Origin: Ureibacillus sp. FSL W7-1570
GTDB lineage: Bacteria; Bacillota; Bacilli; Bacillales_A; Planococcaceae
Length of the DNA stretch: 64,000 bases
Assembly (NCBI RefSeq): GCF_038593265.1
Contig: NZ_CP151979.1
Span: forward strand, 2,246,001 to 2,310,000
Direction of reading: 5' to 3'
Both the position numbers and the translations under genes were made by a program. The stretch's first letter is position 1. Each line of letters begins with the position of its first letter. This document shows, one piece after another, positions 4,488 through 48,675 of this stretch. Below the pieces are notes generated by a model. It did not search any database. It was not told the origin of the DNA and was given only the letters and a program-made list of their open reading frames with translations.

Positions 4488-4584
4488 AAAAAAGCGCGCA
4501 CCTCATTCAGGAGAAATGCGCTAATAACCTTCAGTTAACGATTAACGTTCCCTTTTCGTGCCGTAACCGGATGAATGAGGTGCG
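4488..4584 (-). promoter_or_regulatory. Structured RNA-like element with terminator, between rplQ and ecfA1
   Basis: On the minus strand a 13-base segment (4584-4572) is exactly complementary to a second one (4509-4497), closing an 88-base domain. The second segment is also the 3' half of a compact hairpin (4521-4496) that starts GCGCA, ends TGCGC and is followed by six T residues. The two pairings exclude each other, as in attenuators and riboswitches. I do not recognise a known class. It may instead be a complex terminator of the alpha operon. Confidence 0.45.
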
Positions 4585-4664
4585 GAGAGCTAGACGATAC
4601 GAATGGAAGCATTCGATCATCATAACGCTCAGATGCCTTTATTGTCGTATAAATCATTCATTTG

Positions 4665-6987: not shown

Positions 6988-7009
6988 ATTTTTCGCACCT
7001 CCTTAAAAA

Positions 7010-7123
<114 letters not shown>

Positions 7124-7159
7124 TCAACTCAACCTCCTTAAGTCTTCGGAGTGCAAAGA

Positions 7160-7378
7160 TTATTTAAAGCGGTATGTGATACGACCGCGAGTCAAATCGT
7201 ACGGAGATAATTCGATTGTCACTTTATCTCCAGGCAGAATTCGGATGAAATGCATACGGATCTTTCCAGAAACGTGTGCAAGCACTGTGTGCCCATTCTC
7301 TAATTGTACCTTAAACATCGCGTTTGGCAAAGTCTCAACAACTGTTCCTTCAACTTCAATTACATCGTCTTTCGCCAT
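7160..7378 (-). CDS. infA: Translation initiation factor IF-1
   Basis: IF-1 (72 aa), a single OB-fold that binds the 30S A-site during initiation. [39 protein letters not shown] and the end [11 protein letters not shown] are standard. The ATG at 7378 is chosen because AAGGGAG lies 8 bases upstream. Normally map lies between adk and infA; here only a relic remains, and infA seems to have its own promoter and a long leader within that relic. Confidence 0.97.
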
Positions 7379-7391
7379 CAACCTGTCTCCC

Positions 7392-7759
7392 TTCTTTATG
7401 TGCTAAACGGTTCCCGTCTGAGAACACTCGCAACAATTTTGCAGGTTAGAAGCAACTCCATTAACAAACATTGGATTGTATGAGAGATGTTCGAAAGACG
7501 CTCGCTGGTTTCGCTTCACACAATCCAGGGAATGAACAATCCGGTATAGAGCTGTACTCCTTTGTTAAGGATGTCCGGAAACACAAGTAATTCATACCCG
7601 TTCACTAGATGCTTCCACGAAACCCATAACACTCTTCACAAAAGAACTCTTTTGTAAGTATAAGCACTTTCGCAAGCAGTGTATACCGGGCACTATATGC
7701 TTTTGCAACTTTTTTTCGTTATATTGCCTCCGAATACCCCTCGCGAAAAGTATTATGAC
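7392..7759 (-). pseudogene. map: Degraded methionine aminopeptidase gene (map relic)
   Basis: This 400-base gap between adk and infA is exactly where map sits in other Bacillales. Translating the minus strand in several frames recovers Map-like pieces in the correct order: EKKLQKHIVPGI (ending 7682; family EELKKHIKPGI), GFRGSI (7625-7608, then TAG), VNGYELLV (from 7605), GLCEAKP (7526-7506; family GLQEAKP), ERLSNISHTIQ (7503-7471; family ERLSNISHAIQ) and [10 protein letters not shown] (ending 7392; family DGKKCAHFE). Consecutive pieces lie in different frames, a base is missing between EAKP and ERLSN, and the relic is about half the usual 750 bases. The metal-binding Asp, His and Glu regions are lost, so it cannot encode an active enzyme. 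The comparison is with remembered family sequence, not an alignment run. Confidence 0.82.
7680..7708 (-). promoter_or_regulatory. Predicted infA promoter within the map relic
   Basis: On the minus strand TTGCAA (7708-7703), a 17-base spacer and TATACA (7685-7680) form a reasonable sigma-A promoter. Transcription from it would give infA a leader of about 295 bases made mostly of map relic. The hexamers overlap former codons of map (around HIVPGI), so the promoter may be a recent invention. Confidence 0.45.
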
Positions 7760-7779
7760 TTTCGAAAGAATGACGGGTA

Positions 7780-8487
<708 letters not shown>

Positions 8488-8498
8488 CTAACCAACCT

Positions 8499-9794
8499 TT
8501 ATTTCATGAAACCTTTATAATGACGTTTTACTAATTGTGCTTCTAATTGTTTCATTGTTTCCAGCGCGACACCAACGATGATGATGACGCTTGTTCCACC
8601 AATTTTGGCGGAAGCTGGTAAATTCATAAAGTTAATAAACAAAATAGGCAATATCGCAACAACGGATAAAAATAGTGCACCGACAAATGTTAGACGGTAT
8701 AGCACTTTCGTTAAGTAATTTTGTGTATCATTTCCTGGACGGATTCCAGGGATATACGCACCTTGTTTCTTCAAGTTATCCGCAATGCGTTCAGGATTCA
8801 CTTGAACAAATGCGTAGAAATATGTGAACGCAACAATCAATGCGATATAGATGATCATCCCAACAGGTTTTGTATAGTCAAACGTGTTGATAATGAACGT
8901 TGTCACTTTGTTTTGACCGAAAAACGCCGCTAACGTCTGAGGTGTAATGATGAATGCCACCGCGAAGATTACCGGAATAACCCCTGCAGCATTCACTTTC
9001 AATGGCAAGTGCGTTTGTTGTGCTCCAACATGCGGTACTCGGCCTGATACCCGTTTTGCATATTGGATTGGAATTTTACGCAATGCTTGTTGGAAGTAAA
9101 TGACTCCAACAACGATAGCCAACATAATTAATGCAAGTAGCACTAAAACGATTATACGGATGAATAGTTGATCCCCTGCACCTTCAATTTGTTGGGCATA
9201 AATTTGGTTAATTGTAGTAGGTATCGCGGCAACGATACCTGCAAAGATGATGATTGAAATTCCGTTTCCAACGCCATGAGCGGTAATCTGCTCACCGAGC
9301 CAAAGCAAAAATGCTGTACCGGCAGTAAGCACGATTGCAATCGTTAAATAGGAAAGGAAGCTTGTATTCGTAATTAACGATCCACCATATAATTGGTTAA
9401 AACCAAATGACATGGCGAGGGCTTGGATGAAAGCCAATACTACGGTAAAGTAGCGAGTAAATTGAGCCAATTTACGCCGGCCTACTTCACCTTGGCGTCC
9501 CCATTCTGCAAACTTAGGCACGACATCCATTTGTAACAATTGAACGATGATGGAAGCAGTGATGTAAGGCATAATCCCCAACGCAAAGATGGAGAAATTC
9601 GATAAAGCACCGCCGCCAAACACGTTCAGAAAACCAACCAAGTTAAGATCATCCGTTACTTTTAACACATCTGAATCCACGTTCGGTACAGGGATAAAAG
9701 TTCCTATACGAAAAACGATCAGCATTAGTAAAGTGAAGATAATTTTATTGCGAATATCGCGGACGCGCATAAAGTTTGCGAAAGTACGAAACAT
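8499..9794 (-). CDS. secY: Protein translocase subunit SecY
   Basis: SecY (431 aa), the channel of the SecYEG translocase in the cytoplasmic membrane. Ten hydrophobic segments can be followed through the protein. The plug and second helix region GGGALSNFSIFALGIMPYI and the cytoplasmic loops VNPERIADNLKKQGAYIPG and GVALETMKQLEAQL are family hallmarks. Its ATG overlaps the rplO stop codon (TAATG), indicating translational coupling. Confidence 0.97.
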   Translation of the reverse strand: MFRTFANFMRVRDIRNKIIFTLLMLIVFRIGTFIPVPNVDSDVLKVTDDLNLVGFLNVFGGGALSNFSIFALGIMPYITASIIVQLLQMDVVPKFAEWGRQGEVGRRKLAQFTRYFTVVLAFIQALAMSFGFNQLYGGSLITNTSFLSYLTIAIVLTAGTAFLLWLGEQITAHGVGNGISIIIFAGIVAAIPTTINQIYAQQIEGAGDQLFIRIIVLVLLALIMLAIVVGVIYFQQALRKIPIQYAKRVSGRVPHVGAQQTHLPLKVNAAGVIPVIFAVAFIITPQTLAAFFGQNKVTTFIINTFDYTKPVGMIIYIALIVAFTYFYAFVQVNPERIADNLKKQGAYIPGIRPGNDTQNYLTKVLYRLTFVGALFLSVVAILPILFINFMNLPASAKIGGTSVIIIVGVALETMKQLEAQLVKRHYKGFMK

Positions 9795-18672: not shown

Positions 18673-19104
<432 letters not shown>

Positions 19105-41639: not shown

Positions 41640-41800
41640 GGTCATTCATACCGATAAAACAAAAGCCTCCGTGTAGACACACGAAGGCATAAAACGTCAT
41701 CATCAAAAGAATCGATTTATGACCTCGGTAGGGAAAGTTTAAGTGCGAATGCACCCCTACTGTCTACGGTACAAATGAGTCGCTATATTTAATTCAGAAC
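41640..41800 (-). promoter_or_regulatory. Ribosomal protein L10 leader (autoregulatory)
   Basis: The transcribed leader before rplJ contains the GGGGTGC...GCAC helix and the CCCTACCGAGGTCATAAA region typical of the Bacillus L10 leader, bound by L10 with L7/L12. It ends in a strong intrinsic terminator (41665-41688; GCCTTCGTGT with ACACGGAGGC, then TTTTGTTTT). Binding of the complex is expected to favour termination. Confidence 0.85.
41665..41688 (-). terminator. Attenuator hairpin of the L10 leader
   Basis: Ten-base arms with one wobble pair around a GTCT loop, followed on the minus strand by TTTTGTTTT. It lies 47 bases before the rplJ start codon. Confidence 0.85.
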
Positions 41801-48421: not shown

Positions 48422-48675
48422 AAAAAACGCCTCCATCATATTTCTATGACAGAGACGCCAAAGTCGCGCGGTTCCACTCTGATTGAAAGCATAAACGCTT
48501 TCCACTCTGCGGCCTGTAACGGTGACCAGCCGACTTGCCTACTCCATTTCAGCCAAGTGCTCAAAGGTGCATTTCCGTAAAACAGAGGTTTAGGTCACTT
48601 TCAGCCAATGGTGACCCTCTCTTTCAAACATATTTTACGTACTTCTCCTTTTCAACGCTTTCGCTTTTATTTAAT
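48422..48675 (-). promoter_or_regulatory. Cysteine T-box riboswitch controlling cysS
   Basis: The 425-base gap between gltX and cysS holds a full T-box leader on the minus strand. The T-box sequence AGAGTGGAACCGCG is at 48480-48467. Stem I features include GGCTGAAAG near 48608 and the GAGTAGGC region near 48540. The specifier is most likely TGC at 48571-48569, a Cys codon that matches the gene. The terminator (48459-48422) has a GGCGTCTCTGTCATA stem and TTTTTTATTT tail. Uncharged tRNA-Cys should stabilise the antiterminator and allow cysS transcription. Confidence 0.93.

Follow-up and report, generated by a model that had tools for sequence, protein, structure and literature searches.

Within the window, the 64,000-nucleotide stretch of Ureibacillus sp. 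FSL W7-1570 analysed here, the intact genes adk and infA are separated by a minus-strand spacer of 398 nt in which the original prediction had placed a relic of map, the gene for methionine aminopeptidase. No open reading frame in 7382-7779 scores over the TIGR00500 cut-off, and such a frame occurs only elsewhere in the genome. The features of the locus are listed below.

7160..7381, minus strand: infA, downstream neighbour, intact (Pfam eIF-1a, 100 bits).
7382..7397, minus strand: infA Shine-Dalgarno region AAAGAAGGGAGACAGG, the conserved 3' edge of the element (genus and cross-genus alignments).
7382..7779, minus strand: whole map-derived non-coding element, the adk-infA spacer (no Map ORF; aligned across the genus).
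7473..7517, minus strand: block A4, map codons for EAKPDERLSNISHTIQ, with one base fewer than most relatives have.
7608..7632, minus strand: block A2, map codons for YNGFRGSI, reading TATAAT in most other genera.
7623..7690, minus strand: hairpin domain, with CCCGG...UUAUGGG closing strands and a variable paired arm (consensus fold of alignment A1).
7679..7711, minus strand: block A1, map codons for LQKHIVPGI (tblastn to Map; frozen wobble positions).
7780..8436, minus strand: adk, upstream neighbour, intact (Pfam ADK, 208 bits).

A tblastn comparison with 11 Map proteins from spc operons recovers colinear Map pieces in different frames, namely KKLQKHIVPGI (7714-7682), GFRGSI (7625-7608), FPGLCEAKP (7532-7506) and ERLSNISHTIQ (to 7471). 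Ordered Map-like fragments in shifting frames are thus real, as predicted; of the six proposed, four are clear in the window and a fifth, around ELVHGIPG, is recognisable in other genera only. The predicted bounds, 7392..7759, fall inside the spacer, and the element is better bounded at 7382-7779. Taken by itself, the window offers modest evidence of Map ancestry: its best piece reaches 25.0 bits, a score attained by 3 of 2000 dinucleotide shuffles. Across the genus, the Map match exceeds all 2000 shuffles in 21 of 24 spacers (the exceptions being the window locus L036, with 3 shuffles, L035 with 4 and L058 with 1), and the top match scores 43.9 bits (L051). The possibility that the fragments score no better than shuffled sequence is consequently dismissed for those 21 spacers, while the window itself is matched by its three shuffles.

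The genome encodes a single type I Map over the family cut-off (G000:C1:1735352-1736092, L001; 304 bits against a cut-off of 171), so that the expected paralogue elsewhere does exist, and in full length. Also as predicted, the map-derived locus itself cannot make Map. Exactly one Map match at E<=1e-40 is found in 24 of 25 genus genomes, the exception being the fragmented G010. The genome's own Map matches the genus spacers at 13.1-17.3 bits, no better than shuffles (shuffle maximum 24.3), and the remnant therefore belongs to the spc-type map lineage. Compared with the type I map (TIGR00500) of the spc operon, the element occupies the same adk-infA position and is colinear with it over a stretch that starts at about codon 25, or at 14-21 in some genera, and reaches about 155-175; over all genera, Map matches start at codon 14-25. 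It differs in being less than two thirds as long, frameshifted and marked by a common internal deletion, in allowing no Map product, and in bearing its constraint on nucleotides.

The broken state is shared far beyond this genome. Among 25 genus genomes searched, 24 carry adk and infA on one contig (in G010 infA lies at a contig end), and all 24 spacers, 384-433 nt long, align in conserved blocks; an intact map in these close relatives, which the original prediction had proposed to look for, is present in none of them. Two of the genus spacers also occur, letter for letter, in records of Ureibacillus thermosphaericus and U. terrenus. When named genomes were scanned for a pattern that fixes 25 bases, 43 loci were found, all in Lysinibacillus, Ureibacillus, Solibacillus, Caryophanon, Metasolibacillus or Bacillus ndiopicus records, and both flanks are present at 40 of the 43. 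The family search covered 151 genomes, 149 of them with infA; 17 belong to the window's genus, and 78 of the other 134, drawn from all 18 further genera, were examined. All 78 have an adk-infA spacer of 291-454 nt without an intact map, and a Map match at E<=1e-3 is still present in 51. Over the family, an intact spc map is found in 0 of 102 genomes examined, from 19 genera, with a spacer of 291-454 nt throughout, and the element ends at the infA start, a fixed position, in 102/102. Sequencing error as the cause of the broken map is very unlikely, because none of 102 genomes has an intact map at this place, and the supposition that the loss is particular to this genome is not supported by the same count. 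The spacers of genera g19 (L122-L128) and g20 (L129-L132) are strongly diverged and are mostly missed by the covariance model described below.

Outgroups were taken from class-level genomes, the order-level search having given only genomes of the same family, and comprise the 21 loci most similar in Adk among those that the class-level search returned. An intact map lies between adk and infA at 18 of these loci. The remaining three (L221, L225 and L230, families f9 and f10) lack map there and retain a gap of only 94-180 nt. A map missing from the spc operon is not in itself exceptional; retention of the remnant is the unusual part. In an alignment of 7 functional maps with 15 elements (the window, 10 further genera and one unassigned Lysinibacillus), every element is colinear with map and lacks about codons 91-123. 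Both flanks of this codon gap are present in 13 of the 15, L112 and L158 missing more. All 15, the window included, are missing both the IDIG...GDSAW stretch and the C-terminal portion of map, which together we take to be the region of the five metal-ligand residues. The common internal gap suggests one ancient map loss.

A search of plasmid and phage records gave no match that would point to a mobile copy of the element. In several outgroups map and infA are separated by a KOW-type gene, which scores 19.9 bits against Pfam KOW, below the 22.3-bit cut-off. It is open in several of them, with an intact form at L216, and broken in genus g14 (L215, L222), where it is another decaying gene just ahead of infA. 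As a source of the 3' third of the spacer the KOW gene was rejected, since only 2 of 111 spacers exceed the 95% level of the shuffles.

Homology to an intact gene and inactivating lesions, both expected of a pseudogene, are present at the locus; neutral divergence without purifying selection is not seen in the three best blocks. Third-position minor-allele fractions in A1, A2 and A4 are 0.08, 0.09 and 0.13 in the element (n=20, 19 and 19) versus 0.48, 0.40 and 0.46 in 18 functional maps, which come from many outgroup families and include at least two with misplaced A1 windows. The element samples hold one sequence per genus, except that the window's genus supplies two and one sequence is unassigned, and each copy is the best block match at 60% or more, a rule that drops 2, 8 and 9 of 107 sequences for A1, A2 and A4. 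A fairer control than the outgroup maps is given by adk and infA from 20 representatives, whose genera are nearly those of the element samples. Here the third-position fraction is 0.31 for adk, with the same value at codons whose amino acid is invariant, and 0.22 for infA; adk third positions agree on average only 56% across those genera. Within the element blocks, third positions display neither excess variation nor codon periodicity. The blocks were selected for conservation, and the contrast is therefore valid for A1, A2 and A4 and not for the whole spacer, whose mean minor fraction is 0.22 over 314 well-filled columns, 86 of them at or below 0.10. The best-kept map blocks are thus held more tightly at the nucleotide level than the synonymous sites of adk, and the description of the locus as a decaying relic is not supported.

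The closing strands CCCGG-UAUAC and GUAUA-A-UGGG (in the window CCCGGUAUACAC and GUGUUAUGGG) enclose an arm that varies between genera in length and sequence. Pairing between the first and last thirds of this variable arm averages 9.5 pairs, whereas shuffles average 3.6 and length-matched adk segments 3.4. The test covered 93 of the 107 distinct sequences, those in which the flanks could be recognised (14 were dropped for want of a flanking motif), and left g25 and g20 outside. The arm pairs above its shuffle mean in 15 of 17 groups, so that sequence changes while structure is maintained, and its fold z is lower than that of adk in 12 of 17. Genera g19 and g28, each represented by one sequence, have no closing arm, and g35 stands barely above shuffles.

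Consensus folds, covering 14 of 19 genera (g19, g20, g23, g25 and g28 were left out), give sense-strand z values of -6.7 and -5.4 for the element in two separate clades, with none of 60 column shuffles reaching that level in either clade, versus -3.8 (0 of 60) and -1.3 (6 of 60) for adk, whose alignments are less diverged and hence not a matched control. On the antisense strand the values are -4.1 and -1.4 for the element and -1.2 and -2.7 for adk; an earlier run with 20 shuffles gave the element -6.6 and -5.8 in sense and -5.1 and -1.9 in antisense. A tree-based, home-made test resembling R-scape found no covarying base pair at E<0.05 in any of three alignments, and one of the alignments gave two pairs with E<1. 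The power of this test is limited by the small number of substitutions per column, and alignment A1 has a double change at only 1 of 10 predicted pairs. Genus g20 was dropped from one covariation run and from the block-constraint and arm analyses, and g19, g20, g23, g25 and g28 from another covariation run; such dropping favours apparent conservation. Whole-spacer single-sequence folding was discarded as support, the mean z of -2.02 in 21 elements comparing with a lower -2.53 in 20 adk coding sequences. The sense strand folds better than the antisense in 20 of 21 elements, and also in 16 of 20 adk sequences, while 18 outgroup maps average -1.24 and -1.25 on the two strands. As for known RNA families, none in Rfam 15 reaches its gathering cut-off in the spacer. 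At E<=10 there are three matches far under cut-off, of which only one lies within the spacer, on the plus strand at 7567-7585 (E 9.4; 14.3 bits, cut-off 33). From these comparisons a structured RNA is probable; we do not call it proven, because covariation is not significant and single-sequence folding is non-specific.

A covariance model of the element holds only 10 base pairs and is thus mainly a sequence profile. Run with strict filters, it matches 49 of 398 class genomes, once each, namely 29 of 39 listed family genomes and 20 outside the family. The 10 family genomes that it misses belong to g19 (8) and g20 (2). In all 20 outside genomes the match covers the full model. The six that were checked by coordinates (G037, G192, G222, G236, G248 and G268) lie just downstream of adk and all fall at an intact map, that of G037 directly within the TIGR00500 match.

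Neither an intrinsic terminator nor a strong promoter was found in the spacer of the window, where the sole promoter-like site scores 9 of 12. The spacer is therefore probably co-transcribed with the operon, whose genes downstream of infA, the alpha operon, are presumably rpmJ-rpsM-rpsK-rpoA-rplQ. A fixed partner for the infA Shine-Dalgarno sequence was sought and not found: no single conserved block pairs with it consistently, the pairing partners vary between genera, and the window's own Shine-Dalgarno is largely unpaired.

The reading that we consider fairly probable on balance is that exaptation has turned a dead protein gene into a structured RNA located just before infA. The spc-operon map would have been inactivated once, near the root of the family, a second Map elsewhere having rendered it dispensable. 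Parts of the map message may already have had, or may then have gained, a role as nucleic acid, and these parts would have been kept since as a structured RNA of roughly 300-450 nt, intercistronic between adk and infA and co-directional with the operon. We infer that the element acts as RNA, most likely in cis, on how the transcript segment infA-rpmJ-rpsM-rpsK-rpoA-rplQ is expressed or processed. It is highly improbable that the locus is instead a plain, functionless pseudogene whose decay is incomplete. The frameshifts and large deletions in the map homologue and the Map paralogue in the genome are what such a pseudogene predicts; against it, three blocks are nearly unchanged across genera in which adk third positions agree at only 56%, the wobble positions of the element are frozen, and the remnant is kept in 102/102 genomes, though other families without map have gaps of only 94-180 nt. 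Residual coding, whether of a short conserved peptide or as translation for coupling, is suggested by longer open map-like stretches in some genera (g27) and is exceedingly improbable, given that the constraint lacks codon periodicity, that frames vary between genera and that arm lengths are not multiples of three throughout. A further variant would make the RNA constraint older than the loss, the map mRNA having already borne a functional structure overlapping the code, of which only that part survived. The surviving pieces are indeed colinear with roughly the first two thirds of map, and the closing strands are present as map codons in outgroups. This order of events is distinctly improbable, however, since wobble positions in the same blocks of outgroup maps vary freely (0.40-0.48) and outgroup map fold z is equal on both strands (-1.24 and -1.25).

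Two other explanations grant the conserved blocks a function and assign it elsewhere. It is unlikely that they are conserved as DNA, whether as an internal promoter or as a region of protein binding that serves the infA and alpha part. Block A1 in the window reads TTGCAA-N17-TATACA, and most genera other than the window's own have TATAAT in A2. However, TATAAT is lost in the window's genus and CTGCAA replaces TTGCAA in many genera, promoter-like sites in 7000-8500 are no commoner than in shuffles (2 versus a shuffle mean of 3.0, in the window only), the conserved length exceeds that of a promoter, and the paired arm is left unexplained. We likewise doubt that the element is a trans-acting non-coding RNA processed from the operon transcript. 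Its size and conservation resemble those of an RNA gene, and base-pairing with other messages is conceivable for its conserved CU-rich stretches, CTCATCC and TCTCTCAT; what speaks against this is the fixed position up to the infA start in 102/102 genomes, the single match in each of the 49 genomes matched by the covariance model, and the finding of neither a strong promoter nor a terminator in the window. We therefore favour a cis-acting element on the infA and alpha part over both a processed trans RNA and a DNA element.

Conversion of a protein gene into an RNA is already known in mammals. The accessible text of PMC5577775 describes mammalian long non-coding RNAs, including Xist, as fossils of protein-coding genes (citing Duret et al. 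2006 for Xist), notes limited homology between XIST and LNX3, and also discusses paralogues that accommodate the loss of a protein gene. Xist and its kind resemble the element in having lost the protein code while the locus was kept as non-coding RNA; the element differs in being bacterial and short, in lying within a core operon, and in its nearly unchanged map blocks. The literature searched, in which subscription papers were poorly covered, held no account of an adk-infA element and no bacterial gene-to-RNA case, and in the main text of a survey of 50 bacterial genomes infA, adk and four taxon terms are absent (PMC11109978). The fullest form of the proposal, in which a core protein gene was turned in place, within the most conserved ribosomal-protein cluster, into a large, family-wide structured RNA that is a bacterial counterpart of Xist-like exaptation and probably controls the infA and alpha part, seems to us about equally likely to hold or to fail. 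If true, it would provide a bacterial structured RNA born from a dead protein gene whose ancestral code is still readable, and would point to regulation of infA and the alpha operon from a site just before them, in the large family of Lysinibacillus, Ureibacillus, Solibacillus and their relatives. Close outgroups still bear a live map, and the origin of a regulatory RNA would thereby become directly testable.

The Rfam families L10_leader, L17DE and S10-Clostridia are like the element in lying in or near ribosomal-protein operons; the element differs in its coding-gene origin, in reaching no Rfam cut-off and in having a structure that is predicted only. Elsewhere in the window, all on the minus strand, Rfam elements include a T-box at 48448-48664, an L10 leader at 41650-41787, an S10-Clostridia leader at 18994-19093 and an L17 downstream element at 4561-4631.
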